Below are positions 41,949 through 64,000 of a DNA stretch of 64,000 bases, piece by piece. The position numbers were made by a program, and so were the translations under genes. The DNA comes from Strobilurus pachycystidiatus (lineage: Eukaryota > Basidiomycota > Agaricomycetes > Agaricales > Physalacriaceae): contig JAHLMK010000001.1 of the NCBI GenBank assembly GCA_019915135.1, positions 2,480,001 to 2,544,000 on the forward strand, in the 5' to 3' direction. Every line of letters begins with the position of its first letter. Within the stretch, counting starts at the first letter, position 1. The notes beneath the pieces are model-generated. The model was not told the DNA's origin, searched no databases, and saw only the letters and a program-made list of their open reading frames with translations.

Positions 41949-42309
41949 ATTCAGGGCCTCGTGAATACCACATCTCATTCGACCTTATACCTTCATGCAT
42001 AGATTACTAGTTCGATGCTCAATGTTAAGAACGGTTCTAGATGATTGTAAGTTAAGCAGCAGGCGTTCTAAATCTTGAATGCGTGAGTTTTTACTGATCA
42101 TAGCGGAGGCCACAAGCAATTGACGTATTGTGTATTCAGTGCCTCGTGAATATGACATTTCATTCAACTTTATTACTCCAAGCATAGATTACCAGTTCAA
42201 TGTTGAGAACGGTGTATATAGGTACTGTAGTTCCTTCGCATGTAAAAACAGCAAGCGTCCTAGATCTTGGGGATGCGCAGTGTTTTGCTGACCATGGCGG
42301 AGGCCCACA
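41949..42309. repeat. Diverged tandem duplication of the CHO1-like gene 3' end
   Basis: Copy 1 is 41949-42117 and copy 2 is 42134-42309. Both start ATTCAG(G/T)GCCTCGTGAATA and run to the matching AGCGGAGGCC / GGCGGAGGCC. Copy 2 holds the last codons of the phosphatidylserine synthase (SAMVSKTLRIPKI). Copy 1 encodes the decayed counterpart (SAMISKNSRIQD). So copy 1 is a partial, degenerated duplicate of the gene end plus its 3' flank. Confidence 0.75.
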
Positions 42310-43045
42310 ATCCAAATATCGCACTGACGACATGGAGTTCCCCACGGCCTCCGTCATCCCCCCACAATGTGATTGTCCCCAAAGGAATGCCCTGTTGTCC
42401 TTCTATCCAACCTTGTTTGACCCAGTATGCAAGTGTTCCGACGAGAACGAGAGAGGAAGGGATAGGCAAGCCTTCGAAATATTTTGCCTTGCCGCCATCG
42501 TCCTTGGGCACAAGGGCGACAGTCGCGTTGAAGCGCGCAAGTCGGGCGAGGCCGCAGCATATGAAGACCGTCAGCATGACAGTGTCGAGGTAGGTTCTGA
42601 GGCCAACGACGAAGGCAAGAAGAGCTGGAGCTACGCCAAATGAAATCTGCGGTGGAGTGAAAGTGAGAATGCGTGATGCTTGTCGGGAAACGACACCCAC
42701 TAGATCAGCCAGACTGTCGAGCTCCTGTCCGAGCATACTGCTGGACTTTCTCCACCGTGCGACCTTGCCGTCAAGGAAATCGAACATGAGACCGGCAAGG
42801 GGGAACCCTAGTGCCATGGTCAGGTAGTCGGGATCGTTCGAAATGAGATAGCGGGCGGAGGAGAAGATTGAGAAGGATCCGCAGACGCCGTTCATGATGG
42901 TGACAAGATCTGCCAGCCGAAAATTCCTGGAATAATGGTGTGAGAGGAGGCGACGGCGGCGAGCAAGTGGGGGCTACCTGACGAGCGAGAAGTGGCCCTC
43001 CGAGTCCTGGTACTGCTGCAGGGCAACTGCTTTTTGTTCGTCCAT
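42260..43045 (-). CDS. cho1: Phosphatidylserine synthase (CDP-alcohol phosphatidyltransferase)
   Basis: ATG 43045 (MDEQKAVALQQYQDSEGHFS); intron; then NFRLADLVTIMNGVCGSFSI. The CDP-alcohol phosphatidyltransferase signature D-G-x2-A-R-x8-G-x3-D-x3-D is complete in DGKVARWRKSSSMLGQELDS with LAD. An intron between CTA and ATT gives DSLADL spliced to ISFGVAPALLAFVVGLRTYL, the arrangement typical of type II phosphatidylserine synthases. Several membrane helices follow. The stop at 42262-42260 lies inside a duplicated segment. Known: makes phosphatidylserine from CDP-diacylglycerol and serine in the ER, the first step of the fungal route to phosphatidylethanolamine and phosphatidylcholine. Confidence 0.9.
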
Positions 43046-45180: not shown

Positions 45181-45404
45181 TGTAAGACCACGACCCCGTT
45201 GCTTAGTTCCCACAGAGCTACGCACAACAGGTAATACTATTGTGTAGCTACGTTTGGGTACAAGCGGATGGGTAGGTGGTAAAAAGTTATCTCTACTACT
45301 CGAAAATGTGGACTATATATAGGTAAATGGGAGTGCATGTGATAATGGGAATAAAGGCCATAACGAGCATAGAAAGAGCATACGGTACATACGAATGAAT
45401 TCCA
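45181..45404 (-). repeat. LTR, left copy (3' LTR of the minus-strand element)
   Basis: Begins TGTAAGACC and ends GAATTCCA on the plus strand, so both strands have TG...CA ends. Identical over its whole length to 55629-55852; identity even continues four bases (TAAA) past the right end. Contains the palindromic TATATATA. Confidence 0.88.
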
Positions 45405-45495
45405 TAAACGGAGAGCGGGGTTGAATCCTGATTAGGAAACGGCGTCATCCGACGCCGTATCCGTTACACCCGCCCCGACCAGATTAGTGACAGGG

Positions 45496-47801
45496 CTAAT
45501 CGAATACAATGAGCGGTCCTCCCGGTTGGATGGCTTCCATAGTGTGGATGAGAGCTGGTGTGATATCGACGGGGGAAACGACCGGCGAGGAGGGGATGAG
45601 AGGAGGGATAGATCCGAGTCCCGAGTCAGTGGACTGAGACGCGTCGTGTTCGGTGACCGATGCCTCCGTGTCTCCGTGTGCAGGGACAGGATGGACAATT
45701 GTAACGCGATATCGTAGGAACAGGCGTCGTCGGCGCTCTAAGAGCATGTTCAGGTCCCAAGACTCGGGGAACTCGTAGATCAACTCCGAGAAACCGTCCG
45801 GTAGCCGTGATTCACGGGCCATGGTCATGTTCCAGCGTCGCGGTAGTCCCACCACATTCGTATACGCGGCATACCGGATAAGAGCGTCGGTAGCAAGACG
45901 GCGCGTGGTTTGGAATTTGGTATTGGCGTACATCCACCGTAGTCCTACAGGGTCTTGCATATGAGACTGCAGGTCACACATCGCGAAATCGTGTTGAGAC
46001 TTATTTGCGTATCCAGGGTCTGCCGCGAAGCCGAGGCAAAGAGCATCCTTCAGGACGCACGAGGCTCCCGGAGTAGCTACAAAATCCCCGCTGGTGTCCA
46101 GGATCCAGCCCGTCTGGTTTTGAGAAGTTCAAGTGCGCCTGAAAAGCCAGAGGTCGCGGGATCCCATTGAGGGCGTCTTGGAGCCGAGAACGGCAACACC
46201 CTGAATGTCCAAATAAACAAGGAGATGCGCGAGTGGTGACATGCAGTTTCATATGCAAACGGCTGTAATACGCCGAAGAGCTGGGCGCAATCAAGCCCGC
46301 GATCAGTGATGCCACAAGCGGCCATGTGGCGTACCAAGTCAACCAGGGTCATGCCATCAACCAGGTTGGGGGGGTACGCGTGGTAATGGACATGTTCGGC
46401 TATCTGAATATCGTGTGCCGACCGAATTTGTTCGTAAGCTTCGGGGATAGCTAGAACAAAACAAAAGCGGATGTACAATATGTCCATCGCCGCTTTGTTA
46501 CGAACTGAGTTGGACGAGGGCGTGATCTGTCGATAGAGGAAGCTCCCGAACAAGAGGCGCATGTCCAGAAACTTTTTAGTGAATATCAATACGCGAGATA
46601 CGATGTGGGTAGCATGCCAGATGGTGTGGTTACGATACCCGACAAAGTCGGCCTGATTGCCGCGTGGAGGAGGGAAGGCAGGGATGGGGACAGGTGGAAG
46701 AGGAGGCAGGTGGACGCCTCTGACGCCGTCACCAGGTTTGGTGACAAACGTCGGGGATCGCGCCCAAGCAGTAGCTGATGGGTTCCCGCGTTCCGCCTGA
46801 ACAACCGTTAGAAGGCCCGTTTTCAGGTATGGATGCCCGGCGCGACTAATATGCCCCTTGATTGCCCGAGAATGAGAAGCACGTCGGAGGAATTCCCCGG
46901 CTACATGTGCCGCCATGAATAGATGGAAGCTGGTGATGTTATCCGATTGTCGTGCTGCTTCGAATAGGATATGTGCGTCGGCAGGTGTGTTGACCTTGCC
47001 GTATGCGATACCATCGTATAAGTCGGAGGATGGGAGCGTGTCGGGGAATGATGGTAAGGTGAAATCACCGACCACTGAGGCCGGGGCCCGTGGCACAGGA
47101 GGAGCAGCCACTATAGGGTCTAAGAATTGAACTGACGGGTGCGGCGTGTCTGCACGGCGTCTGGTTGGACGTCTCATGATGCCGCTCGCGTTGAGGCGGG
47201 CGCTACGAGCCGTTCCTCCGAGTTGTCGATCAGGTCGCCCGTTGAGAGACATGCCATAGTATCGATCTTGATCGACATCAGAGATCAATTTATTATAGTC
47301 TAAAGTCCGCGGCGTACCGTACGGGGTTTGCATGACGATGTCATTGGTCGGACTCGCGGCTTTATTGATGGTATGATCACCCAAAGTGAGCTCGTTGGTA
47401 CCGTGGATTGCGTCTGGCATCTCTGTATCAGTATGTGGGATCGCATACTGGTTGAGGTGGTACGTGCCTCCAATTTGGGTAGCGAATGATTCAAGAGGTT
47501 CGGCCATGAATGTGTCGAACTCTGTCTGGGAGGGACCAAATGGCTCATCACTCCACTTGAACGTGCCGTTTTCGGTGAGGAATGAGGGGAATGTGGGATC
47601 ATACGATTGGTCCATCGGAATGGCTGTATGTCCATATTGACTCGGTAGGGTCTCCCCCCGGTCATTGAGAAGTGTCGATGCCGGGGTCTGGGGCATCGGC
47701 GGCGGTTGCATCACTTCGTCGCACGGAGCGGGGAGTGGTTCCGGGGCCGGGGTGGTCCACGGATCAGACGCGAAAAAGTTGTAGATAGGCGAAGTAGACA
47801 T
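45496..47801 (-). CDS. Third reading frame (ORF3) of the LTR element, function unknown
   Basis: The open frame reaches 47825, but the first ATG is at 47801 (MSTSPIYNFFASDPWTTPAP) and runs to a stop at 46077, about 574 residues. It is Pro-rich at the N-terminus, with a more ordered part from about residue 260 (LPSSDLYDGIAYGKV, AARQSDNITSFHLFMAAHVA, KAAMDILYIRFCFVLAIPEA, LVDLVRHMAACGITDRGLDC). Protein-like sequence then continues in other frames: DALNGIPRPLAFQAHLNFSK near 46150, then DFVATPGASCVLKDALCLGF to 45496 (ending GGPLIVFD). Introns or frameshifts are therefore needed. It lies where other retroelements carry env-like or captured genes, but no signal peptide or membrane segment is seen. 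I recognise no family. Confidence 0.6.
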
Positions 47802-47879
47802 GATTGTTGTCGAAGAACGTTTCACGATGAGGCGGACTCGCTGTGAGGTGATGAATTTTCATTTAGAGTTGTCCTCATC

Positions 47880-47887
47880 TTTTTATA
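47880..47887 (-). promoter_or_regulatory. TATA box before ORF3 of the LTR element
   Basis: On the minus strand the sequence reads AGTATAAAAAG, about 80 bp upstream of the ORF3 ATG and just downstream of the pol stop. It suggests that ORF3 is transcribed from an internal promoter and not from the LTR. Confidence 0.5.
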
Positions 47888-47948
47888 CTCTGCTCATTGG
47901 ACTCGTGTATGAAGTCGTGGCTAGATAGTACCTTCCCACGGCTACCTA

Positions 47949-50900
47949 TTATGGCAGTGATGGTATCACCTTTCTGCCACGAGTCCGAGTCCGCGCGTTC
48001 TTGCCGCTTTCATCCACGTTGACTTTTGGAAGCTTGAGAGGGTCGGAGACTCCCTGCAGGCGTAAATATGCATCTAATGCTTTCAATTTGCTGCATTTCT
48101 TGAGTGGTTCTAATGTCCGATCTCCCAGAGACCAGTGCACGGTCAAATATAGTTTACCACTGTGCCATTCATGGTCCACAATTTCCTCGACGACTTCCTC
48201 CGCGCTGGCGGGACTCCCAAAATCATAGGGCTCGGGCTTTTGTCGATTCGGGAACAGTACCGCGTCGCTTTCCAGGTACGGTTTGATTAAATTCACGTGG
48301 AATCGATCGTGCACCTTTCTACGCGATAATTCTTCTGGCAGTTGGATCTGGTAAACTGACTTCTCTGCGTTGGCCTCAACTACACGATATGGGCCGATAA
48401 ACTTCGGCGCAAGTTTCCGTGTCCTTGATTTTGGTAGATTCAAGTTTTTTGTTGATAGATATACCATTGACCCCACCTTGATATCAGGTTCAGTTCGCCG
48501 CCGCTTGTTCGAATAGAACGTTTGAAACACACGCGATGCTATTATTGCGTCGTGCGCATCGAACAGATTGTTCATCGCTTGAGTCGCAAATGCGCGTACT
48601 CCCGGGGCGATCTCTGTGTCGTACCGGACTTCTCTCATCATGCTGGGTACGTATCCGTATGTCAGTTCAAACGGCGCGAATCCCGTTGTCTCGCTAACGC
48701 TTGCGTTCAGTGCAAACTCTACAAGTGGACATTTCGCCAACCAGTCCCCCTGGTCAGGACGGATACTCGCTCGGAAAATCTGTCCCACGGATCTATTGAC
48801 ACGTTCCGTAAGTCCATCAGTCTGGGGATGGTATGCAGTTGACATCAATAATTTAGTGCCCAATAGGCGATGTAGCTCTTTCCACCATGCGGACGTGAAC
48901 TTTGAATCACGATCCGACACTATGGATTCCGGTAGGCCGTGTAGTCGCACTATCTCGTGGAGGTATACTTTGGATAGATCCGTGGCGGTGTTTGTGGTAT
49001 GCACTGGAATTAGGTGCACTTGAGAGGTAAGTCTGCACACAATCACCCATAGGTAGTTTTTATCATTGACTTCGGGTAGTGGGCCGATGAAGTCCATACT
49101 GATAGATTGCCACGGGCGGGTTGGGGTCGGTAGTGAATGGAGCTTTCCAGTTGGGGATTGGTAAGTCCCTTTTGCAGTCTGACATGTGGGGCACGTCTGA
49201 CAGAACTTTTCGGTCATTCCGTAAATCTGCGGCCACCAGAACCATCGTCTGATGTAGTCCGCTGTTCTTTGGGGTCCGAAGTGCCCAACGGTCGCGTGTC
49301 CTTGTTCGAGCACGCGTCCTCGTAGCGAATCTTGCCCCGATGGGCTCTTAGGTACGCATAGTACCCGTTCCCCATTAAGGTTACTTGTCCATATGAGTCC
49401 ATCGGCAGTGGCCTCGAATCGAGGGTACTCGTTTGTGGCACTGAGTACCTTGCTGAATACTGGGTCAGTAAGGTATGATTGTTTAATTTCTTCTATGAAT
49501 TTATCGTGTTCACCAAGAATGATTGCACTCAGATCGTCTCCTCGCATACGCGAATCTATGACCGAGGGATCGCGCGTTCTGGGTACCTCCTCTGGGTTCG
49601 TCACTTCCTGCGCGCGCGCGCTCTCGAGCTCTGCAGCTTCTCGATTGCGTTCTTCGACGCGATCCTTCATTTCTCGTAAGCGTGTCAATTCGCGTTGAAC
49701 GCACATTCGTTCATACTCATCAAGCCGGCCAATGGGTAAGTCCTCACCTTCGCGGTCGATGCGGACATCAGCGTTGACATATTCGGATACGTCGTGTACG
49801 TCCTCGTGAGTATCGGTTTCGTAGTAGCGTGATAAAGCGTCCGCTACTTTATTGTTGACTCCCTTCACGTAGGTTATGTCACAATCAAATCGCGCCAGAT
49901 ATTCCATCCATCTCATTTGACGTCCGGAAAGTCGTCTTTGAGTTTTAAAGAATTCTAGTGCTTTGTGGTCAGTGACCACGTGAATTCTGTATCCCACTAA
50001 CTTATCTTCCCACTTGAGCAATGCCTCAAGTATAGCCAGCGTCTCAGTTTTGAAGACACGGTAGTTTCGCTGGGTGTCCGAGAATTTCTTGGACATGAAT
50101 CCCGCGGGACGGCATGATTGCCAAGTTGGACCTTGACCGTACATTGCGCCTACTCCGGTGAGTGATGCATCGCATATAACCCATATGGGCTCGTCTAACT
50201 TAGCGTTGATAGGTTTGAGTACCGGTGTCCGGCATGCCAAGTCCTTGATTGACTGGAAGCATGAGTCGTGAATCGGTCGCCAGAACCACGGCTGACCGTT
50301 CTTCTGCATTTCTGACAATGGTGTGGTATACGCAGTGACGTCTGGTAAGTAGTGGGCCACATAGTTGACGACTCCGAGAAATTTCTGAATGTCCCCATAG
50401 TCTCGGGGCGTTCTCCATTCCCGAATCTTGGCTAGCTTGTCTGTATCGGCGTGGATACCATCGTCGTCGATAAAGTGACCCAAGCAATCGATCTTTTCCG
50501 CGTACAACTGTATCTTGGCCGCCTTTAGGTATAATTTGTTCTCTATGAGCTTATCGAACACGATCTTTAGGTGTTGTTCATGTTCGTCTACAGAATTACT
50601 GAACACAAATATGTCATCCAGGTATACATGGACGAACCGTCCTAGATACTCCTGGAAGATGACAGTCATAAGTCGCTGGAACGTGGATGGTGCATTGCAA
50701 TCTCCCTGTTGCATGACATTACTGACATACGTTCCAAAGATGGTAGAAAATGCTGTTTTCCACACGTCCTCGGTAATGTTCCGAACTTGTTCGTAAGCAT
50801 TGGAGAGGTCGATCTTCGAGCGGAACAGCGCCCGTGCCACGTCTAACCGAATTGTGTCCTGGTCCGGGAACGGGGTGACATCCTTTACTGTATTTTCGTT

Positions 50901-51629
50901 CCGCTTTCTGCAATCGATGGTGCACCTCAATGTCTGATCCTTCTTAGGTACACATAGCATCGGTGCAGCCTGGTCTGAGGTACATGACTCCCACCACTTC
51001 GCGCGAGTGTACTGATTGATTCTGTCCAGTAGTTGACCCTTCATCGCGTCAGGGCATCGTGGCATATAGTAATTGTATCGTTTACCTTCCTCCTTGAGGG
51101 GAATGCGATGATTCACCGCTCGGAAAGGTGGTAATGACTCCGGAGTTCCTTGGAGGATGTCCGCGCAGTATTCCAGCCACTGTGCTCGTAATTGTGGTAT
51201 GTCATCTTTCGAGTACTTCTTATCTGGTTGTAGTTGAGTCTCTTTGAATGCTTCAGCTGCTGCTGTGAATCGTGTGGTAAGATCGCGAACTTTTTTGTCG
51301 CTTAGGTGTGCTGACTGGGATTCTTCCGTCACAGACCTTTCACTTTGCATTAGCAAGTATTCGTCAATGAGTTCGTTGACTTCGTTCACCACTGTTCGGT
51401 TCTTTTCCAACCGTGGGTCGAGTGTCCTCGCAGTCTGTACTAACTCTTTTAGCTCTTCTTCCGAGAAGTAATCCTCGGGGCTTAGAAGTACCGGTAATTG
51501 TCTATTTAACGGGGTACTCTCGAGTGTTGTATCCTCATCATTGACGTCTTCGACTCGTGAGTTCTTTGATTTCCACGGCACTTTTGTCGTTTCGGACTTG
51601 GCTATGTTGTATTTCGGCACCGGTCGTAG
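47949..51629 (-). CDS. Pol of the Ty3/gypsy element (RT, RNase H, integrase, chromodomain-like)
   Basis: Uninterrupted frame directly in phase with gag after one UGA codon; it has no ATG near its start (the first long-frame codon usable otherwise is GTG at 51620). Domains: RT with VYLDDIFVFS near residue 340; RNase H with CDASLTGVGAMYG near 485; integrase zinc region (GHATVGHFGP, then CQTCPTCQTAKG) near 780-810; integrase core with the first Asp in ISMDFIGPL, the second in SDRDSKF and Glu in DGLTERVNRS. The C-terminus has EEVVEEIVDHEWHSGKLYLT followed by VHWSLGDRTLEPL, a diverged chromodomain-like segment. Known: such domains guide integration to marked chromatin. All catalytic residues seen are intact, so the copy may be active. 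Confidence 0.92.
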   Translation of the reverse strand, partial: LRPVPKYNIAKSETTKVPWKSKNSRVEDVNDEDTTLESTPLNRQLPVLLSPEDYFSEEELKELVQTARTLDPRLEKNRTVVNEVNELIDEYLLMQSERSVTEESQSAHLSDKKVRDLTTRFTAAAEAFKETQLQPDKKYSKDDIPQLRAQWLEYCADILQGTPESLPPFRAVNHRIPLKEEGKRYNYYMPRCPDAMKGQLLDRINQYTRAKWWESCTSDQAAPMLCVPKKDQTLRCTIDCRKRNENTVKDVTPFPDQDTIRLDVARALFRSKIDLSNAYEQVRNITEDVWKTAFSTIFGTYVSNVMQQGDCNAPSTFQRLMTVIFQEYLGRFVHVYLDDIFVFSNSVDEHEQHLKIVFDKLIENKLYLKAAKIQLYAEKIDCLGHFIDDDGIHADTDKLAKIREWRTPRDYGDIQKFLGVVNYVAHYLPDVTAYTTPLSEMQKNGQPWFWRPIHDSCFQSIKDLACRTPVLKPINAKLDEPIWVICDASLTGVGAMYGQGPTWQSCRPAGFMSKKFSDTQRNYRVFKTETLAILEALLKWEDKLVGYRIHVVTDHKALEFFKTQRRLSGRQMRWMEYLARFDCDITYVKGVNNKVADALSRYYETDTHEDVHDVSEYVNADVRIDREGEDLPIGRLDEYERMCVQRELTRLREMKDRVEERNREAAELESARAQEVTNPEEVPRTRDPSVIDSRMRGDDLSAIILGEHDKFIEEIKQSYLTDPVFSKVLSATNEYPRFEATADGLIWTSNLNGERVLCVPKSPSGQDSLRGRVLEQGHATVGHFGPQRTADYIRRWFWWPQIYGMTEKFCQTCPTCQTAKGTYQSPTGKLHSLPTPTRPWQSISMDFIGPLPEVNDKNYLWVIVCRLTSQVHLIPVHTTNTATDLSKVYLHEIVRLHGLPESIVSDRDSKFTSAWWKELHRLLGTKLLMSTAYHPQTDGLTERVNRSVGQIFRASIRPDQGDWLAKCPLVEFALNASVSETTGFAPFELTYGYVPSMMREVRYDTEIAPGVRAFATQAMNNLFDAHDAIIASRVFQTFYSNKRRRTEPDIKVGSMVYLSTKNLNLPKSRTRKLAPKFIGPYRVVEANAEKSVYQIQLPEELSRRKVHDRFHVNLIKPYLESDAVLFPNRQKPEPYDFGSPASAEEVVEEIVDHEWHSGKLYLTVHWSLGDRTLEPLKKCSKLKALDAYLRLQGVSDPLKLPKVNVDESGKNARTRTRGRKVIPSLP

Positions 51630-51632
51630 TCA
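51624..51632 (-). promoter_or_regulatory. UGA-CUA leaky-stop site between gag-pro and pol
   Basis: On the coding strand the junction reads CAT TGA CTA CGA CCG GTG, with gag and pol in the same frame on either side. UGA followed by CUA is an established readthrough-promoting context in eukaryotes, including Ustilago maydis. Inferred role: a fraction of ribosomes reads through to make gag-pol. Confidence 0.7.
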
Positions 51633-54600
51633 ATGTTTACGAGAGTTCGAACTACTCTTCTTCATCTTAGCGTGTGCTATCTCTGTCACCATTGCTGAGA
51701 GGTGAGCCTTAGGTACGTCCTTGGGCCGTGACATTGTGTCAGATGTTTCGTCTTCTAGCTTTGCATTCATGGGTACCCGTTTGGCGTACCTCCTGGCTAG
51801 CTCCTGGGCTTCCTCCCCCTCCGAAAGAGTTGGTGTAGGAACTCCGCCGACGCGAATCGTGTCGTGTTCGAAATCTAGCGCAACTTTGTGTTTGCGCATG
51901 AACACTGTACCTACAATTAGGTCATATCTGTCGATGTTTGTAATGTCAAAGTAGTCGTTTCCTTCTACTTTACGGCGTTCGTTGCCATATTCAAACGAAG
52001 TCTCCGTTCCGTATGAGATCTTCGAGCGGCTGCCCTTGGTTCCCAGTTGCAATGGGACCGGGTTTGATAGTAGAAATGGTTTGATTTTTGCTACTCGGGC
52101 AAAATCTGGACTTATGGCATCTGAAGTACTTCCACTGTCAAAGAGTGTGAACGCCCATGTTCCGTTTAGTAGAACGAACGCGGGAAGACAGCGGTTCTCG
52201 GCCGCGGTTCGTCGTGGACGCGACTTAACACGTGGCATGTGTCTGGTGGGTATCTCGGCTATGTTGGGACGATAATACGTCTGAGCCGACACCGGGTCCA
52301 CTACCTCTTCCATAGACGCCATGTATTCCCCGTAGTCCATTGTCAACTCGTCGTGAGACGCGATGCTGGCGTTGTCATCAAAATCATCGTGATCCGACTC
52401 GTTTTCGTCGATCACCGTGAATATCTCCTCTCTCGTACCGCCATCATCCCGTATGGCTTGTAACCGTTCAAACGGCGTCTCGCGCATTGCGCTCATGTTC
52501 TCATCTTCACCGTCGTACTGGCTTCCTCCCCAAGGATCTTCGGACACTATCTCGGTATCAATTTGCGCGTCCCGATCGTGTCCACCGTCCGTATCAGGGG
52601 CCGCCCAGTCTGGAGTGTCATTCTGAGGATCTCCAAGTGCGATATCATATATCTCCTCATCCGCTAATCCTTCAGTGATCATATTCAGACGCTCACCATT
52701 CGGAAACAGCGGTGTCTTACCGTAGTTTGCGCAAACTGGGTTGTTGGAAAAGTGACCAGGGCGCCCGCAACCCCAACACAGTCTTTTCAGTGGCTGTCGA
52801 TTGATAACTGGCCTCTGTCTCGATTGAGGACTCGCATCTCTTGCTGCCTGTAGGCGTGCCTTCTCGTTAGCGGCATCCGGTCGCGTGCTGTGACGCACAC
52901 CTTGGACTTTCTTGAACCGTCGAAAGGCCGGACTCGGAGAACGCGGCACTGTAGTTCGCGGCTCTTCTGCCATGAACCGCACAGATACTTCGCGTGACTG
53001 ACGGGACTGCCGTTCATAGTACTTTTCTGCCCGAAGGCCCTTCTCAATGGTGAGTGCACGTTGCATAATTTGGTTCACCGTTGAAGATTCGGCGATAATA
53101 CCATCTTGATTGAGCTTGCTACGAATTGTAGCAGGCGTAGATAACATCAACTTATGTTTGAACCGGTATACATCCGGCGGACATGGCATCATGCCCGTCC
53201 AGCGTATCATGTCGGCGAATAGCTGACGCATGCCGCCTTCAGATCGATATTTAACGCTTTCAAACTTGTGAATCAAGTCATAAAGTGACGATTCGTGTAT
53301 GAAGCGTCGGTATAGACTAGCGACGACTTGCGCAAACGTAGATTGTTCAGGTTCGTCGTCATCGTCTGTCATATTCCATTGGACTTCCTCAACTGCTTCG
53401 TGATACCAAGCACGAGCGTCTCCTTCTAGGAAATTTCCTAGGGTTGTTGTTCGCTGACTGTCAACACTGGATACGGTTTCCGTTCCATCGTTCGCAGTGT
53501 GATAAGCCGGTCCGCATATATTTGCAGCTTTCAGCCAAAGTACTAATGATAGGAACCATTCATCGAACTCGGCAATACTGGCCAATCCGTCATACTTGGA
53601 TGGTTTGTGTAGTCCTTGCATTGTAGACTTCTGGATGTTTGGGTCGAGACCCACTCGTATCGGTAGTAAGTGTTTCTTGATGTATCGTTCATAACGTCCG
53701 AAGATTGCTAACATCGCTTCAGTGTCTGAACGCACTACTAGGCGGTAAGCAAACTCTTCTTTGGTCGAGTGTTGGTTCGGACCGACAGACTGATGTCTCG
53801 CACTTGAAAAAGGAGCGGGTGTGGGCGATTTCCTTCCCCGATCGCTAGCGCTAGTTGGGTCATGATTTCCATCATCCCCACCGCCTCCGCCACCTCCAGC
53901 GCCTCCACCGGGACCGCCTCCACCGGGGCCTCCGCCGCCGCCAGCGCCTCCGCCGGAGCCGCCTCTACCGGGGCCGCCGCCGCCGCCGCCAGCGCCTCCA
54001 CCGGGGCCGCCTCTACCCGGGCCGCCACTTCCTCCAGGATTTCCGCCGCCGCCAGAACCTCCACCTCCGCCGCCATTGCCACCCGGACCAATAGGTGGGT
54101 CACTAGGATCGACCGGTGGGTTCGGTGATTCTTCTAAGTTGGGTTCCGCGGTAGCCTCTTGCTTGATTTCCGGGTTGATACCCTTGTCAGTGGGTTTGGG
54201 AGACGGGCACCAGGCTCGCACTACACGATATTCCTCGGGATTGGATGAGTAATGGGGCACTTGTACAAGTATTCCCTGGAAGGACGGGTGGGACACATAT
54301 CCAGTTTCGGAGATCTCGACTTTTTGATCAACTATGTTTGACCGTCCGTAGTGTTCGATATCCATATTCCGGAGGACTTGCATTATGCCACGAACATATA
54401 AGTCGTGTTGTTGCGCGTTCATTGAATCATTACCAAACGGTCCTGAGGACGGAAAAGTCTTGTTGGACGAGACATCTGTCCATTCATCAATTCCTCGTTT
54501 GGTGTTGACCCGTCGTACAAACTGTGACTGAGTCTCATCATCTTCCTTGCTTAAGATATCCTTGACATCTTCTATCGTCAAATTGGGATCAAGGTTAACC

Positions 54601-55541
54601 TCGAAATCTCCCTGAGTTTGGTTGTATTTCCCCAATTTGGGAAGTGGATCGCGAGGTTCAGTTCGAAGCTGTCCTTCGCGAGTCAAATTGTCGGCGAGAT
54701 AACGATTGATGGCTAGTGGAGGTATAGCCACGTATGTTTCTCCTCGAATCGTCTGACGTTGAGTTGCCAAATTGAGGATTCCTTTCTCATGCTTGTGTAC
54801 GAGATCTTCATGAACTTGAGCTCGATATGCTCGTTTGCCAAGTTTGCGGATGAAGTCATGATTGACTTCCGGTTGGTTGTACTTTCCAAAGCCTTTCAAA
54901 GTCTCGCTCATTGCGTTCACGAACGTGTTCTTATATTGCGTGAGCGCCTCGTCATCAAGTTGAGACGTGTCTGGCATGTCTGGCCAAGCATTAGACCTAG
55001 GTCTACTTCTCGCAGTCAACTCATTGTCGAGTTTCTTATGTGCTACAATGGCCCTTAGACGTTCGATTTCTGCCTCAACGTCGGCAATCGGTCTACTCTC
55101 TATAGGAATCGATTTCGGTCGAGAGGAGGCTCTTGATCCGTGCTGAGATCCGCGCTGGGATCCGCGCTGGGACTCATGCTGAGATTTCTCAGCTTTTTCC
55201 TCGAGGGATCTGACGGAGGCGCGTGACCCGGGAATCGATGGTTGAGGGGATCTGAGAATTCCCATTGTGTTTCCCGTGTTCTGTGGAGATGAGGAGTCAA
55301 AGTCGTCAGTTTCGACAGATGACGACGAGAAAGCAAGTTCAGATAACGATTGCTTGTTTTCGGAGTTCTGAATACGCTGTTGCTGCCGGGTGAGGCGAGT
55401 GAGAAGCGGATCAGATTTCGGAACACCCTTGAGGGGGTGTGAAGGACGGTAATCGGCTTCGGGATCGTCTCTCTTTGATCGCTTCCTTGCCGCGGTACCG
55501 GATTTAGGTTGTTTGTTTTTAGATGTCCGGCGAGGGGGCAT
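51630..55541 (-). CDS. Gag-protease of the Ty3/gypsy element
   Basis: ATG 55541, 1,303 codons. The N-terminus is basic (MPPRRTSKNKQPKSGTAARK). The middle holds a glycine-rich tract (GPGG, GGGAGG repeats) at about 54100-53860. The retrotransposon gag region follows (KPSKYDGLASIAEFDEWF, RRFIHESSLYDLIHKFESV). A zinc-knuckle-like CWGCGRPGHFSNNPVC lies near residue 925, with a longer last spacing (x6) than the usual CCHC. A retropepsin-type protease with active-site LFDSGSTS lies near residue 1135, then DLIVGTVFMRKHKV. The frame ends NSRKH-UGA at 51632-51630. Notable: long gag (over 1,300 codons), with protease before the stop. Confidence 0.9.
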   Translation of the reverse strand: MPPRRTSKNKQPKSGTAARKRSKRDDPEADYRPSHPLKGVPKSDPLLTRLTRQQQRIQNSENKQSLSELAFSSSSVETDDFDSSSPQNTGNTMGILRSPQPSIPGSRASVRSLEEKAEKSQHESQRGSQRGSQHGSRASSRPKSIPIESRPIADVEAEIERLRAIVAHKKLDNELTARSRPRSNAWPDMPDTSQLDDEALTQYKNTFVNAMSETLKGFGKYNQPEVNHDFIRKLGKRAYRAQVHEDLVHKHEKGILNLATQRQTIRGETYVAIPPLAINRYLADNLTREGQLRTEPRDPLPKLGKYNQTQGDFEVNLDPNLTIEDVKDILSKEDDETQSQFVRRVNTKRGIDEWTDVSSNKTFPSSGPFGNDSMNAQQHDLYVRGIMQVLRNMDIEHYGRSNIVDQKVEISETGYVSHPSFQGILVQVPHYSSNPEEYRVVRAWCPSPKPTDKGINPEIKQEATAEPNLEESPNPPVDPSDPPIGPGGNGGGGGGSGGGGNPGGSGGPGRGGPGGGAGGGGGGPGRGGSGGGAGGGGGPGGGGPGGGAGGGGGGGDDGNHDPTSASDRGRKSPTPAPFSSARHQSVGPNQHSTKEEFAYRLVVRSDTEAMLAIFGRYERYIKKHLLPIRVGLDPNIQKSTMQGLHKPSKYDGLASIAEFDEWFLSLVLWLKAANICGPAYHTANDGTETVSSVDSQRTTTLGNFLEGDARAWYHEAVEEVQWNMTDDDDEPEQSTFAQVVASLYRRFIHESSLYDLIHKFESVKYRSEGGMRQLFADMIRWTGMMPCPPDVYRFKHKLMLSTPATIRSKLNQDGIIAESSTVNQIMQRALTIEKGLRAEKYYERQSRQSREVSVRFMAEEPRTTVPRSPSPAFRRFKKVQGVRHSTRPDAANEKARLQAARDASPQSRQRPVINRQPLKRLCWGCGRPGHFSNNPVCANYGKTPLFPNGERLNMITEGLADEEIYDIALGDPQNDTPDWAAPDTDGGHDRDAQIDTEIVSEDPWGGSQYDGEDENMSAMRETPFERLQAIRDDGGTREEIFTVIDENESDHDDFDDNASIASHDELTMDYGEYMASMEEVVDPVSAQTYYRPNIAEIPTRHMPRVKSRPRRTAAENRCLPAFVLLNGTWAFTLFDSGSTSDAISPDFARVAKIKPFLLSNPVPLQLGTKGSRSKISYGTETSFEYGNERRKVEGNDYFDITNIDRYDLIVGTVFMRKHKVALDFEHDTIRVGGVPTPTLSEGEEAQELARRYAKRVPMNAKLEDETSDTMSRPKDVPKAHLSAMVTEIAHAKMKKSSSNSRKH

Positions 55542-55628
55542 CCACAGTCGTACGAATGAATCGACGACTGTTTACAATAGCTTTGTAGCGACGCAAATGT
55601 ATTGCTTTATTACTGATGCGTAAAAAAG

Positions 55629-55852
55629 TGTAAGACCACGACCCCGTTGCTTAGTTCCCACAGAGCTACGCACAACAGGTAATACTATTGTGTAGCTACG
55701 TTTGGGTACAAGCGGATGGGTAGGTGGTAAAAAGTTATCTCTACTACTCGAAAATGTGGACTATATATAGGTAAATGGGAGTGCATGTGATAATGGGAAT
55801 AAAGGCCATAACGAGCATAGAAAGAGCATACGGTACATACGAATGAATTCCA
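55629..55852 (-). repeat. LTR, right copy (5' LTR of the minus-strand element)
   Basis: Identical to the left LTR. TATATATA at 55762-55769 could serve as the core promoter; because it is palindromic it does not fix direction. An AATAAA lies about 38 bp further on the plus strand. Gag starts 88 bp inside this LTR. Confidence 0.88.
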
Positions 55853-55947
55853 TAAAAGATCAGTATGGGCCATCGCTGCGCGTGGCAAGCCGGGACACTT
55901 TTTCTCGCTACATTCTCGTATCATCCCTTGCCCCTTCTACTACTCCT
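55853..55947. other. Junction between LTR element and Helitron frame
   Basis: 95 bp after the right LTR and before the Helitron stop codon. No clear CTRR end with a preceding hairpin is visible on the minus strand, so the Helitron 3' end may have been split or lost when the LTR element inserted (inference). Confidence 0.4.
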
Positions 55948-58900
55948 TTACAGTAGACGCTTATATATTATCAAACATGCTCTTGCTGTCCCACACGTCA
56001 ACAGTCCCTCTCGATTGACTGCATAAGTGCCCTCATTCTGTGCCAATCGCCTCAAGTATCCATCATATCTCCATATAATATCACTGGAATCTATCCATCT
56101 TGCCATGAAATGGCCTCCAGCACCCACTTGATCAAAGTAAACTATTCCTGACAAGCGATATCCCACACTTTCACCTTGAACTCTAATTTGTATTTCCAAG
56201 TCTGGTATAATATTCAACATAGGTTCTTGCATCCAAGCCTGTGTTGCAAAGATAATAAATGGCATTGATCGCTGAATATAGTGCTTCACTTTACAATTAG
56301 CTGAACGACATGTACGGCACGGTGTACTAGTTTCGTATCTTCCTATATCTTGATTTACAAAGTCTTGAATACTGTCATATCGTCCACGTTTTGTCCAGAA
56401 CAAAGATTGTCCAGTATAAACTGTTCTTTCATGGCCTCTTTCACATTCATGAATTATTTTGATTGAATCCTCCATATATGATAGAATAGTTTCTAGTATA
56501 TCCTCAACACCAGCATTATGACCTATTTGAAAATATTGTGGTCTTAGAACTGTCAATCTGTTACGAAATTCATTTCTTGCTTCATCAATTCCAATATTTG
56601 AGATCATTGTAAATTGTCCTAAGAATCCTTCAAGTATATACATCTCCTCATTTATAAAAAATTCACGTTCATTTATCAGAAATTCAGGATTTGTACGCCA
56701 GTTATTGAAGAAAATGAATAGTATACTATCATAAGAACAACTATTATTATTCCATTTAGGCCCATAAGGTAGTATTTGCTGTACCTCCAAATGTGTACCT
56801 TGTACTTGACGTTTTGCACTCGACTTAAATATTGGTACTTTTATGGGTTTGCTGCTTTCCTTTACCTCCCTTGTTACCTTCGATATATCTATTGCTTGAG
56901 TACTTGCAGTAGTTTTGATAATGGTTTTTTCAATCTTTTCCCGTGGTGGTAATATGTGCCATTCAACATGATCCGGATATTTTGTCTCATCAATTTCAGA
57001 CATACTTATTCCTACATGAATATTTTTAGGCATATATTTATAATTTCGTTTATATGTACGATAATCTGCAATCATGGTATATCTTGTATCCATTGATACA
57101 TTATAAGGGAGTTTTCGCTCAAAGCGCAATTTGCATATTTCATCCAATAATTCCAATTCACGAAACTCCTGTCTAAGATCACCCATACTGCCACCGGATA
57201 TTTTTCTTGAATCAAAATCTTGTAAGATTAATGTACCTTTAGCAGTCTTTCCTCTAGATAAAGCTGTATATATTCCAAAATACATAGGACAATCATTGAT
57301 ATGAACTGGATTATATGGTCGACTTTTACCCTGTGAACAATAATCCGTCATGGCAAAGTTCAAACATGCATCAACTTGAGTTCTTGCAACACGAATTGTA
57401 TTATCTGTTGGTAAATTGATAGACATTGTACTAGTAGTGCAGCCTACTGGAACCACATTAACTGGTAAACCCTCAATTTGAATATCTTTAGGTGGTTCAA
57501 TAAGTTGTATGAATAATACATCTAACATCAATTGTCCTTTTGATCCTCGTTTTGAACGCCATGAATACACACGTCCTTCTTGTCCCTTTGTCACATTCAA
57601 TTCAGTAGCAATATTTCTGCGAACCATAACTGGCATTCCAATACATAATGATAATTTTGCAGGAATAAGACTTTCACTTGTACTTGAAGGTAAACTCCAT
57701 AAAACCTTTTGCAAATCCATACCAATATTTTTAACTTTCTGTTTAATACCTTTTGATCTACGATCTTTTTGCTCTGTTTGTGTTTCAGAAGGGGAATCAT
57801 CACAGAAAAAATGTAATAAATTTTGATTAGTTTCTTTTGCAAAACGAATTGCCCCAAGTCTATTAATTTCATCACGATGTGCATTTCGAGCTGTTATGAT
57901 AGGAACATTTCTGAATTCTGGGTCATTCAAAGATTTACGACCAGCAACGTTACTGTGAATCAAAGTACGTAAGAATGATATATCTTCAGGTGTGCAAGAT
58001 TTATATCGCATATTCTCTAAAGCTGTTCTAAAGCGTATATCTTCATCTGTCATACCTTGAACACGCATATTTTTTCGTAATATAACAACTTGCGTTACTT
58101 GATGCCATAATGCTTTTCCAATAGCAGCAGCCTGTCCAAAATTACTTTCCTCATGTTGACCAACTTTACGACTCCAAAGAGGCTTATGAATATGCATTTT
58201 TACAGGAGGTAATTGTGCAAAATCACCAGCAAAAATCATATTCAAACCACCAAAAGGTAAATCTACTGCATTTTGAGCTTTTGCAAGTCTTACACTTATT
58301 TTATATAAATCACCACACGATAACATTGAGACTTCATCAAGAAAAATATAATCAACGCCCTTCAATCTGGATCTAATTTGCAACATGACTGTTGGTGCTA
58401 CTACATCACTGTAATATTGTCCATTTATACCTAATAAATAATGATATGTCATACCATTCAATAACGCTGCTGCTGAACCTGTAGGTGCTACAATTACCAT
58501 TCGATATCGCTCATTACGTCGAGAAAAGAATTCAATAAGAGCATGTAAAACTCTGGATTTTCCTGTACCACCCATACCCGCTATATACATTTTCAAGGGT
58601 TCTGCATATGGATTAGTTGCATGTTCAGCTACTATATTAAAAGCTCTTGCTTGTTCTTCATTCAAATCAAAGTCTTTTACGATGTTATTACGCATTTCAG
58701 TGTTAATTTGTTTCATTTTGACTTGTTCATCCTGATTTTGAATTTCATTTTTTGTTGTTTCCTCAACAAATGGATTTATTTCCTTTGGTTTATATTCACA
58801 ATATGGTTTTTCATCATCATCATTATGAATATTTTTCATACCGACTTTATAAGACTCTTGTACTTCAAGACGCAATTTTCCTAAATCCATCATCCAATGA

Positions 58901-61900
58901 TGTGAACTTTGATTTTTTCCTAAATCCTCTGGATGTAAGTTTATACCCGTAGGTAATTTGCTCTCATCAGGTTCTGTCCATCCTGTTTCTGTAATCATAC
59001 CCCATAGAGCACGTGTGGCCGCTCTTGCCTTTATATATGATTTACCAAATCCTAATTCTGTTAATTTTGATAATCCTAATTCATCTAAATCAACGTCTTC
59101 TATATTCTGATCTGTATGATCCAATGATTCTAGATTATCTATCAATATTTGTTGCTCAAGATATTCCTCCATTTGCTCCCACTCTGGATTAATCTCTGAG
59201 CCCTTACGCATTTGAGCCCGATAATCATCTCTTGCATCTAAACATTCATATCGCAAATGAAAATTTTCCATAAGTTGAAGTTGTCTATTTGAAAATTTGT
59301 ATTCGTTGAAAGTTTCAGACCATGAAACATTCTTTTCTTTCAATTCTAAACCCGATCGCCAAGGTTTGAAAAAAGTTAACATCGTACAACAATAATAATC
59401 ACGATCTCCACTATCACGTCTTGGTAACATATCACCTGCTATATTAGGAATGACTGACCCTGTGTCTTCAACACAAGAAACATAATGTGTCTTATTATAA
59501 TTATGATCAGGATGTAAATTATATTTTCCACATTCAAATTCTTCTATCAGTATATTCTTTAAATTTACATGTGCATCGGAAAAACTTTCCAATGTTCGAT
59601 GTAACATTTCATTAGGATCAATAATTGTAGCTTCAGAATCACTCAGGTACTGAATATCATCTTCATCGACATTATTCAAATTACTGTCATCTCCAACTAA
59701 TGTCTTTGTAGGTGAACTTAATATATTTTCTACATTATGAATATGATTATATTCATAATCAACTACACTGGAATCTTCAACTTCTATTATATCCTCTTCA
59801 ATTCCTAATTCATCTTCAGGTATCAAAGTTTTTGTTTTAACACCAGTACACTTTTTGATTTTACATAAGCGAATCCAATCCCACAGACACATTGAAACTA
59901 ATTCTATAGGACGAAATTTATAATCCTCTACTTTTGATATTCCAATGATCTTTCCATCTTTTGTTTTGCGTAAAACCACCTTTTCATTTATAACATGAAC
60001 ATCATCATTATTCCAAGTTTTACGTACGTCTGAAACATATGACTTCCAAAAAAATAATTCAAATTTGGCGTTAGTATAATGATCAGGAAAGCCTAATAAG
60101 TATGAACACATCATAGGATTTCCAAATTCCATCTTTACACCCAATGTATTTACAATTCTTGTAATTAACTTACGAGCTTTATCTTCAGATGTTTGTGTAC
60201 TATTCAATAATACTTCACTTCTTTTAAAGACAGATCTAATTGCTTCGAAAATCACATATGTTTTGAGACTAGGTTTCACTACATATTCTGATACATACAT
60301 GAGAGCTGCCTTAACCGCTGTACCAGATTTTAACGATGTCACATCTGTATTACAATTCATACAGTATGTTAAAACTGCAGTTATCATATTCAACGCAGAC
60401 TCTTCCTGTTTCATATTAATATGACCATCTTCTGTAATTTCTGTAAACTTGAATAATTCACGAGGAAATCTAGCCTTGCATTTTTTCCATTTATTATCTA
60501 AACATCGTTTCCCTGTTTTTCGAGCATTTCGTTTTCCATCACTGTCAAACATACTACTACATTCATGAATTTGTAAAATCTCCAAGAGAAAATCAACAAT
60601 TTCCTCAAAATGAGACCACCACTTCTCAGTTGCAGAGCATAAAGTACATTCCTTATCTTGTTCACTTTCATCTTCATCATCATGATTCACAGTACAATTA
60701 TCAGGTGGCATCTTTGGTAAACAAGTAAGAGGATGTTTGAAATCAGATCGTTGAACAAATTCTGCATTCAATTCCTTAACAACATGATGGGGTCCTCGCA
60801 TAAAAGCACCTTGATGTGCTGCTTCTAAATATGCAACAAGTCTTTCTGCAAATTCACCCTTAGGATCTTTAATTCGATCACGAATCTCTTGTGGCGATAA
60901 ACTTCCTTTTACCCAAATAAGAGTATGTGCATGTAAAGTCAGTCGTCCTTGTTGTTCAATTGCAGCATAATACCATGATACATCACCATATGCACCCTTA
61001 TGTTCACAATCTACTCCAAGAATATGAGTAATAAATGTTTCAATCATAAAATTGAAGAATTTTGCCCCCGCGACAGGATTTTCAGTAACACATAATTTTT
61101 GAGCATTAACATCTAATGGATGATTTGGTTGGAAAGTTTCTCCAGTTTCTGCCCAATACAAACACAAAGGATGTGTAAAATCAGATGGTGTCAATGTTAT
61201 ATACCATGTTGGTGCACCTTCAGAAGACATTAACGAAAATAGTTCATTTCTCATATACTTTTTACTTGTAATAGATCCGTCAACATGACCAGCAGCTAAA
61301 TCTAAATCACGCAATAATTGAAAACATTCTTTTTCGTTATCAGTTACAGGTTTAAAGTGCCCTCTAGCTTTTGTCACCTCAATAATATTATCCAGAATTG
61401 TTGGGTCCAAATTTAAAAGACGCTGACTAATGTCTTGGAATTTAGGCTTTTCTGCTAATAAAAACCCGCTAGTATTTGCCTGTTTCATTTGTTGATGACT
61501 GAAAGCTATGAATGGAAAATTCTTATCAAGTTGAAATCTTTTATCATGATAATTAAGCAACCATCGATAATGCTCATTGGGAGATAGTGCACTATGACCA
61601 ATTCCACCCACTCCATACGGAAATAGCCAAGGAAACATTAACGGATAAAGTTCTGGATTTTGTTTATGATACATATTCTCAGCTTGCTTATATCGACCAA
61701 CGGCAAGAACACCATGATTATTATCAAACCATCGAAAAGCCTCTTTACGCATAGCTTCCCATGTCATACCCTCCAATTGCTCTCCTACTAATCCATGCAT
61801 AATAAATCCACATTTGTCTCCTTCAAACCCGTCTTCATCTACAGTGCTATGTACAGCAGGATTGACAGTAGCATTCGTATCACTCTCACCTTGACGATAA

Positions 61901-63171
61901 ATAACACCAACAGGTGGTGTATCTTCAGGATAAGACGCCATATTTTTTTCAGAAATAATAACATCATCGTATCCTGCGTGATTTATAGCTAACCATTGTA
62001 GTGCTTTCATAACAACTTTATGACGTACAAGAAGAGGCATCTTTGCAAAATCTGCTTCCAAAGGTTTTTCAGGACCAGTAAAAAAAATGACTAACGCCTC
62101 ATCTAATTCCTCTTTTGGTGGGGGGAGAAATTTATACATCTTTGGTGTTGGATTTTGGAAAGCTACACAATGAGCAATCATCTTGCGATATCCTTGATCT
62201 ACTTTGACAAAGCAGGCATTGTGTCTGACTCGAGCTACTAAAATTTGTTCAACCCAGTTTAATTCAGTCAATTCTGATGGTACCGGACCTAGCCATAGAG
62301 AATTTGCTAGTGCATATTTAGGTATTTCCCCTTTACGAATAACTTCTCGACAACGATTACATATATTTAAACACATAGGATCAACTACAGGACCACCTAT
62401 TTCTTGCACTGATTCTGTTTGTGATTTACGTTCACGTCGTGTAACACCAGATACATCTAATATTGGCAGTAAATTTTTGACAGAACGTATTCTAGACATA
62501 TTCTTGAAGGGTATCAATTGTCCACATACACCACAACCACCTTCTTGGAATTCTTCAGGATTCATGTCTTTACATACACCTCTTACGATATCCTTTTGAA
62601 GGGCTTGTGTCAATGGTTCTGGTGGAAATATTTCTTCAACCTGACTAGGTGCATACTTATAATTTCGCACACAGCCTTTTGCATCATGTCGAGGAGCTCT
62701 TACTGATGTCATTTCGACATTGTTGCGACGACCTTTAGGTTTTGTTTTCTTGGTCTGTTCCAACTCCAAGTAAGTCATCATTTCCTTACAAACATCCTGA
62801 CAGACATGAGACTCCATCAGTTTAATCATATCGCTTTTCCGAAGAGAAGATGGTGCTTTCTTTGACACAACATTGTGATGCACCATAATCTTACATACTT
62901 CAATTTTATTCACTTCATTCAGCAGAACCTCAAAAGGAACACGAACACATAGACGCTTTTCATCTCCTTCACTCATATCCTTCGGAAGTCCATATCCAAC
63001 ATACTTGTAAGAAGCGTCATTCTCTATTTGAATAGACTCATACTCCTGCAGAATTTCAGATTTGAATCTCACTACACGCGGGGCACCACCAACTTGACGA
63101 GGTTCATTGTATTTTCGAGCATAGCCCTTGACATCAAAGTCCACGTTATATAATCCTGATACAATCAACAT
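55948..63171 (-). mobile_element. Helitron-type rolling-circle transposon coding region
   Basis: Defined by the Rep-helicase frame; true ends are not identified. 63171 is the first ATG within the Helitron-like part. The block is strikingly AT-rich and intronless compared with the host genes and the LTR element beside it. Confidence 0.8.
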
Positions 63172-63980
63172 TATGGCAACGACTTTGAACAATATGTCAA
63201 CAAAAACAGACCGAAGACACGCAATTCGAATCTGAGAGAAGTCATTGGGTTCAACTGTGTTGTACACATGGCTTCCATGGACCGCAATCAGCGGGTGCTC
63301 GTTCGGAGCAATGGGATAATCCGCAATCGGCGGGTGCTCGTTCGGAGCAATGGGATAAACCGCAATCGGCGGGTGCTCGTTCGGAGCAATGGGATAAACC
63401 GCAATCGGCGGGTGCTCGTTCGGAGCAATGGGATAAACCGCAATCGGCGGGTGCTCGTTCGGAGCAATGGGATAAACCGCAATCGGCGGGTGCTCATTCG
63501 GAGCAATGGGATAAACCGCAATCGGCGAGTGCTTGTTCGGAGCAATGGGATAAACCGTAACGGACCTGTGGTCATTCCTAGGATAACAGTCATTACGGTC
63601 CAGTATGTTGATATCCTGTGTATCAGAAATTCCTGGGCATGCATCTATACGAAATCCCTAACAACTATATGAGATATTGTGAATGATGCGGTGATTAACA
63701 CTCACCAGCGGTCTGATGCCGTTGGCATAAACCCCAACAGGCCAGTTATGAAACGTCCTTCCAGTTGCGATACAGCGGCCTGGATGTGGCTAGCAAAGAC
63801 AATTGGACTCTGCTAGATTTCATATGAAGGAGACGTACCATTCCCCACCCGGTAGAACCCAGCATCACAGCCCAGTAGAACCTAGGAATCTCCTGTGATA
63901 CCTCAACGGTACCAGAAGGCAAGAATCACCTACCACAACAGCAAGGAGCACAGTAATATCAGTTTTGAGGAGCTTGGCAT
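55948..63980 (-). CDS. Predicted chimera: signal-peptide/repeat protein fused to Helitron Rep-helicase
   Basis: Exons 63980-63934, 63881-63839, 63789-63706 and 63657-55948 join in frame with GT-AG introns, about 2,627 residues. Exons 1-2 start like a signal peptide (MPSSSKLILLCSLLLWFYWA). Exon 3 has HPGRCIATGRTFHNWPVGVY. Exon 4 opens GFRIDACPGISDTQDIN, then seven 13-residue repeats of the type YPIAPNEHPPIAV, then the transposase. Helitron parts: Cys-rich N-terminus (GGCGVCGQ, CNRCREVIRKG, ALANSLWLGPVPSELTEL); Rep with LHAHTLIW (HUH type) near residue 965 and paired tyrosines MYVSEYVVK near 1180; Pif1-like helicase with GMGGTGKSR near 1752, FLDEVSML, GDFAQLPPV and ALSRGKT. The C-terminus has NNSCSYDSIL near 2365 and GGHFMARW near 2575, as in papain-fold/USP-like proteases. 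If the 5' exons are not used, translation could start at ATG 63171. Confidence 0.7.
63283..63555. repeat. 39-bp minisatellite, seven units
   Basis: Seven head-to-tail units of 39 bp start at 63283, 63322, 63361, 63400, 63439, 63478 and 63517. The unit begins CGCAATCGGCGGGTGCTCG. Only scattered point differences separate them (first unit and last two). Because 39 is divisible by three, copy-number changes keep frame. On the minus strand the units encode 13-residue repeats in the same frame as the Helitron protein. Confidence 0.93.
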
Positions 63981-64000
63981 GAGCGCAAGATTTGAGAAGT

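Follow-up and report, generated by a model that had tools for sequence, protein, structure and literature searches.

A coding array best read as covarying stem-loops in the inherited 5′ leader of a Helitron lineage from Strobilurus pachycystidiatus

To our knowledge, the ends of eukaryotic rolling-circle transposons are well described, whereas their internal cis-acting elements are little known. In maize Spm/En, a repeat rich in GC and CpG makes up the downstream control region, close to the 5′ end of the unit from which the transposase is transcribed, although we know of no account of it as an in-frame stem-loop array. Fungal RepHel Helitrons have been described from Pleurotus ostreatus in a paper whose main text contains none of the terms ‘tandem repeat’, ‘signal peptide’, ‘transmembrane’ and ‘N-terminal’ (PMC4289320), and TET/JBP-carrying fungal Helitrons in a paper whose main text contains neither ‘tandem repeat’ nor ‘minisatellite’ (PMC12730594). 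Tandem protein-coding repeats whose DNA has dyad symmetry are known as PARCEL, and their open reading frames (ORFs) are linked to mobile elements and membrane-targeting sequences (PMC2996958). Here, we analyse a 64,000-nt stretch of the Strobilurus pachycystidiatus genome (contig JAHLMK010000001.1, positions 2,480,001 to 2,544,000; hereafter the window) containing a Helitron whose transposase is preceded in frame by a minisatellite. Our favoured reading, with a probability of roughly 0.55, is one transposase gene belonging to a Helitron lineage, with a fast-evolving 5′ leader that was inherited and that carries an in-frame array of paired stem-loops, a putative cis-acting element.

The genome (51.8 Mb in 61 contigs) was searched with the DUF6570/Rep region of the window copy, and 12 loci formed a group at 44–100% identity to this copy; weaker, more distant Helitrons also matched. 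At 10 of the 12 (56–100% identity), a minisatellite lies in frame at the same place, upstream of a VGGAPR-type transposase start: the window copy on C1, and C16, C9, C1:5.65M, C15, C5, C8, C3, C6 and C32. Seven loci (window, C16, C9, C6, C1:5.65M, C3 and C32) have a period of 39 bp; C15 and C5 have 42 bp and C8 has 45 bp, so that a unit spans 13, 14 or 15 codons and every period is a multiple of three. An earlier note on this DNA had proposed either that a secreted-protein gene was the landing site of the transposon or that the element had acquired its exons. However, as the array is in frame and in the same place at 10 loci that differ by up to ~44% from the window copy, it came with the element; the proposal is unsupported and, in place of the fusion that it described, we read a leader inherited within a Helitron lineage.

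Searches for an outside source gene agree with this. All eight matches of the leader peptide to the genome at E ≤ 1 fall in Helitron leaders and none elsewhere, while the array DNA had three genomic matches, comprising only itself and C3. The same note had suggested looking for secreted-protein relatives of the protein’s N-terminus, and a search with the first 134 residues against 5.8 billion proteins gave 41 candidates, none of them at E ≤ 0.001. The lack of a source gene in these searches speaks against landing in a secreted-protein gene and against recent exon capture.

For comparisons between copies, C16, C9 and C6 were counted as one and the broken C32 copy was left out, giving seven distinct lineages, three of which (C1:5.65M, C15 and C5) are close to each other (76–79% DNA identity). 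The C6 copy (C6:429761-431559) is broken by a stop and a frame change, and the C32 copy (C32:13439-15040) by three TGA codons.

In the window, a tandem-repeat search placed the array at 63281–63557 (7.1 copies, 97% matches, period 39 bp). Each unit contains two stem-loops of 13 nt, each with a 4-bp stem and a 5-nt loop, set 2 bases apart, and the spacer after the second stem-loop is 11, 14 or 17 nt long, depending on lineage. For example, the window unit consists of GCTC-CGAAC-GAGC, CCGC-CGATT-GCGG and an 11-nt spacer. The first stem is GCTC/GAGC, GTGC/GCAC or CTGC/GCAG by lineage, each of them paired, and the second is CCGC/GCGG or TCGC/GCGA, with TGGC/GCCA, TTGC/GCAA and CCAC/GTGG in individual units. 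On this sequence evidence, the best reading of the repeats is as covarying stem-loops arrayed within coding sequence. Across 43 distinct units, chosen by at least 20 of 28 matches to seed units that were perfectly stemmed but for one G-T, seven of the eight stem pairs changed on both sides (4/500 shuffles reach this), 93.6% of stem cells pair (80.2% when shuffled and 24.1–41.9% when slid) and covariation is 0.458 (0.219 when shuffled, with 0/500 reaching the observed value, and 0.021–0.142 when slid). One modal unit per lineage (n = 7), picked by hand as the most frequent, gave 100% pairing (0/500 shuffles), four pairs changed on both sides (15/500) and a covariation of 0.482 versus 0.194 (0/500), and RNAalifold recovered the same two stems unaided from the unit alignment.

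Among synonymous codings of the first ten codons of the unit, 0.17–0.78% keep both stems in the six lineages where both are perfect (the C15 unit has one G-T pair), so the peptide does not dictate the stems; tested lineage by lineage, the modal units of six lineages gave P values of 0.006–0.020. Hairpins with 5-nt loops number 6–25 per leader across nine leaders, versus means of 2.4–6.9 after synonymous shuffling, and two paired-motif patterns, which C15 and C8 do not fit, had 16 and 23 matches in the genome, all at these loci (0 for the backwards control). Observed/expected CpG is 1.03–1.58 in the arrays versus 0.48–0.72 over the initial 2 kb of the core, and with CpG thus retained the arrays may also be a methylation-sensitive island.

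Several results weigh against the array as a functional structure. No tandem array was found within 1.5 kb upstream of the match at C19 and C1:5.31M (44–45% identity), the choice of the 43 units by stemmed seeds favours structure, and in the modal units the number of further pair types was not above shuffles (358/500). Taken alone, the C15 modal unit is not significant (P = 0.17), the highest count of 5-nt-loop hairpins among 300 synonymous shuffles matches the observed one in C15 and C5, and hairpins with 7-nt loops are raised as well (8–13 in five of nine leaders). Within arrays, 30 of 38 distinct stem changes are one-sided and eight two-sided (five of these Watson–Crick); the one-sided changes (G-T 9, A-C 8, other mismatch 11, pair kept 2) are often uncompensated. 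As wobble counts of G-T (12) are not clearly above those of A-C (9), no strand is favoured. The fold stability of the window array is ordinary (z = −1.23 sense and −0.31 antisense), and an Rfam search of seven loci found no family at E ≤ 1. Finally, amplified modal units have perfect stems and edge units are degenerate, as expected if hairpins drive slippage.

The gene model given for the window in the earlier note holds up in the sequence. Its four exons join in phase into one frame of 2,628 codons whose sole stop is terminal, with introns of 52, 49 and 48 nt (GTAGGT..TAG, GTACGT..TAG and GTGAGT..TAG), and the last exon, an ORF of 2,569 codons plus stop, runs without a stop from the 39-bp minisatellite into the Helitron Rep-helicase. 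A signal-peptide-like hydrophobic start, repeats and transposase in one in-frame model with small 5′ exons are therefore present in the sequence. The features are as follows:

63934..63980, minus strand: exon 1, 47 nt, signal-peptide-like MPSSSKLILLCSLLLW (splice model; best 12-residue hydropathy 2.47)
63839..63881, minus strand: exon 2, 43 nt, a length recurring among models in six of seven lineages (splice model)
63706..63789, minus strand: exon 3, 84 nt (splice model)
55948..63657, minus strand: exon 4, 7,710 nt, the remaining leader and the Helitron transposase (ORF list, Pfam, splice model)
63271..63582, minus strand: tandem array, period 39 bp, 8 units in register, 7 of them well preserved and the 5′ unit degenerate
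63151..63207, minus strand: hydrophobic transmembrane-like segment VFVDILFKVVAIMLIVSGL (hydropathy 2.45 over 19 residues)
63073..63093, minus strand: conserved transposase start VGGAPRV (comparison with sister copies)
61939..62334, minus strand: DUF6570, residues 442–573 (Pfam E 4.4e-39)
60916..61569, minus strand: Helitron_like_N (PF14214), HUH Rep region, residues 697–914 (Pfam E 5.3e-30)
58051..58665, minus strand: PIF1-like helicase (PF05970), residues 1665–1869 (Pfam E 2e-21)
55951..56778, minus strand: C-terminal domain, predicted USP-fold deubiquitinase (structure prediction, alignment)
55860..55890, minus strand: Helitron 3′ end, a GC-rich short hairpin, then CTGA, then T (sequence)

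The element has the hallmarks of a Helitron, with an HUH-type Rep and a PIF1-like helicase in one ORF and a short 3′ hairpin followed by CTGA and T ending at 55860 (a CTRR end, with insertion before T); the 3′ hairpin motif also occurs at C16, C9 and C1:4.9M. The C-terminal domain is predicted to be a USP-fold deubiquitinase: its predicted fold is closest to USP structures, and C38 and H247 of the C-terminal fragment, which we take to be the catalytic Cys and His of the USP boxes, are invariant in 26 aligned sequences, while a 300-residue C-terminal piece matched no Pfam family. GC content is 0.46–0.55 in the leader (63201–64000) versus mostly 0.29–0.42 in the transposase body.

A splice-model search with a hand-made consensus score ranked a five-exon variant, whose additional intron falls at the beginning of exon 4, first (18.05) and the four-exon model second (16.75); the start at 63980 and exons 1–3 are common to both. 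Top-scoring models for C16, C15 and C5 place introns inside the array or change the frame, and models with common exon lengths and conserved peptides were preferred. A second exon of 43 nt, a recurrence for which the search has no chance level, is found among the listed models of six of the seven lineages, not always as the top one (C8 has 37 nt). The stop directly before the leader ORF is TAG in six of seven lineages (by chance, one stop in three), and this TAG serves as acceptor in listed splice models of four (window, C5, C8 and C3); the models of C1:5.65M and C15 use a different acceptor.

Signal-peptide calls were made from hydropathy alone, by which the first exon is signal-peptide-like (≥2.0) in four of the seven lineages (window, 2.47; C1:5.65M, 2.01; C8, 2.24; C3, 2.14), weak in C16 (1.12) and not signal-peptide-like in C15 (0.16) and C5 (−0.68). 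The segment between array and core has hydropathies of 2.45 in the window, 1.77 in C1:5.65M, 2.57 in C8, 2.27 in C3 and 2.49 in C16, and of 0.39 and 0.56 in C15 and C5, respectively; with seven lineages, three of them close, the co-occurrence of signal peptide and membrane segment is only suggestive. Among database homologues, 10 of 60 (~17%) have a signal-peptide-like start, not much commoner than in shuffled leaders (10.1%), after leaving out 32 of 92 that lacked an initial methionine, an alignment reaching close to the core start or a leader of at least 60 residues. Similar stretches follow 10.5% of internal leader methionines and 0.3% of core methionines in these homologues. A conserved signal peptide was therefore rejected as a defining feature, given its presence in four of seven lineages and its near-shuffled frequency in homologues.

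None of nine leaders contains a stop; the seven lineages together account for 1,489 codons, 680 of them in the array. The peptides of the small exons are recognisably common to C15 and C5 (ratio of nonsynonymous to synonymous substitution rates, dN/dS, 0.57) and to C8 and C3 (0.34), and the leader behind the array gave 0.24 for C16/C9 on six differences only, compared with 0.06–0.22 for the core. Core values of 0.87 and 0.86, from pairs with the C6 copy, were set aside because its frame is broken, and the stretches behind the array in C8/C3 and C15/C5 gave no ratio, their synonymous sites being saturated. In C5, both leader methionines precede the array, none lies between array and VGGAPR start, and the first core methionine is 46 residues in, so translation from an ATG cannot include the conserved start without passing through the array. 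The only leader methionine of C15 sits in the fourth array unit, and the window copy has one between array and core (63171) and none before the array within exon 4. As judged from these codon positions, an ATG start would require read-through of the whole array in C5 only, and a later start would be possible for C15 and the window copy.

At the protein level, units of six of the seven lineages share the motif [AV]P.[EA].[SP]P[YIF]A, and 11 of 92 database homologues have leaders with a tandem-repeat score of at least 0.67, a protein-only count without a null. At least four of these 11 (P0019, P0024, P0027 and P0028) have Lys-rich repeats of 18–19 residues just before DUF6570, a second tandem-repeat site in the transposase family.

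Under the favoured explanation, the array would serve the transposon in cis at the nucleic-acid level. It would form hairpins, either in the sense transcript or in the single strand displaced during rolling-circle transposition, or would offer dyad binding sites in duplex DNA, and its partner would be a regulator or the Rep of the element itself. Coding constraint on the leader peptide would be weak, with some lineages gaining a signal sequence and membrane segment. A more specific proposal, that the array is an iteron-like single-strand recognition array (for binding of Rep or a regulator or for complementary-strand priming) doubling as leader code, signal-peptide-bearing and membrane-anchored in some lineages, is speculative and rather unlikely. 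The array could otherwise be a mutational by-product, in which hairpin-forming units expand by replication slippage, template switching perfects the palindromes and frame constraint keeps multiples of three. We regard this as clearly less probable than the cis-acting array but still credible, as it would fit the perfect modal units (one G-T in C15 apart) beside degenerate edge units, the frequent one-sided stem breaks within arrays and the unremarkable fold stability. It sits less easily with two stem-loops of constant size and loop length across loci, with a motif that, as searched, is confined to these loci in 51.8 Mb, and with an array that persists in the same place at 10 loci up to ~44% apart from the window copy; this persistence, together with the two-sided changes between lineages, favours selection.

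It is also possible that the repeats matter mainly as protein, with signal peptide, repeat domain and membrane segment together making up a type I membrane leader by which the transposase is tethered or sorted. Signal-peptide-like exon and hydrophobic segment do occur together in the window, C1:5.65M (the segment weaker), C8 and C3, the peptide motif is shared and leader dN/dS is below 1. However, C16 combines a membrane segment with a weak signal peptide, C15 and C5 have neither, signal-peptide-like starts are not clearly enriched among the 60 homologues and the peptide leaves the stems unexplained, so that we consider this explanation doubtful, more so than a by-product of slippage. Still less probable is an untranslated leader, with translation starting downstream of the array and the exons open by chance. 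The methionine positions in the window copy and C15 would allow it and the splice models rest on consensus alone, but seven distinct leaders lack stops throughout, C5 has no methionine between array and core, dN/dS is 0.24–0.57 and all periods are 39, 42 or 45. Least probable, and largely contradicted, is a local origin of the leader from a host gene encoding a secreted repeat protein, through insertion of the transposon into that gene or capture of its exons: the intact frame, clean introns, signal-peptide-like start and GC difference between leader and body are as such an event would leave them, but the in-frame array recurs in the same place at 10 loci and no relative was found outside these loci in the genome or the protein database. 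A chimera formed by host-gene capture was rejected on the same grounds, with no relative outside the elements and the array in 10 of the 12 loci of the group. The coding array with covarying stems is a concrete candidate for an internal cis-acting element of Helitrons, and illustrates how a minisatellite in a transposon gene can resemble a protein fusion yet prove to have nucleic-acid structure. Should the array be no more than a slippage by-product, it would offer a good natural example of repeats evolving through hairpins while the frame is constrained.

Just above the window end, on the same (minus) strand, lies a distant TET/JBP-like dioxygenase gene (L004:1125-2935). Such a gene is found upstream of the array at seven of the 10 loci, with Tet_JBP Pfam scores of 25.9 and 25.0 bits against a gathering cut-off of 34.9, and at C9 (C9:1188294-1193346) it contains a gap of ~4.5 kb, suggesting a nested insertion. 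C8, C3 and C32 carry the array with no TET/JBP-like gene found at E ≤ 0.001, and a tie between array and TET-like gene was therefore rejected as the whole story. The upstream protein had 63 candidates in the protein database, none at E ≤ 0.001, and only three weak, unrelated chains among solved structures (E 0.36–0.56). On the other side, a long terminal repeat (LTR) retrotransposon (45181–55856, minus strand) starts only a few bases away from the 3′ end of the Helitron. Its two 228-bp LTRs are identical, indicating a recent insertion; it has a pol ORF and a large ORF that weakly matches a retroviral protease, and no target-site duplication was seen in its flanks. Host genes nearby encode Hsp70 (12871–13902, plus strand), an Arb1-like Argonaute chaperone (28725–29924, minus strand) and a CDP-alcohol phosphatidyltransferase (42260–42973, minus strand).

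Comparison with described systems places the element among fungal RepHel Helitrons such as those of P. ostreatus, with which it shares a large ORF encoding both an HUH Rep and a PIF1-like helicase, and a 3′ hairpin with a CTRR-type end followed by T, but from which it differs in its multi-exon leader with an in-frame stem-loop array and its predicted USP-fold C-terminus (PMC4289320). It resembles TET/JBP-carrying fungal Helitrons in the distant TET/JBP-like gene upstream of seven of the 10 arrays, and differs from them in the three array-bearing loci where this gene was not found (PMC12730594). Similarly, a deubiquitinase-type domain within the Helitron ORF is shared with elements carrying the deubiquitinases OTU and VTD, although the predicted fold here is closest to USP structures (PMC9741609). 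Titles retrieved from the open-licence literature included no account of coding stem-loops arrayed within a Helitron. PARCEL shares the dyad symmetry of coding repeat DNA but has a 25-residue unit of the DUF285 type, whereas the units here have 13–15 residues and two short stem-loops and lie in a Helitron transposase (PMC2996958), and a Pfam scan of the window ORF gave no DUF285-type match. PARCEL is the nearest described relative in kind of the coding stem-loop array among the systems compared.

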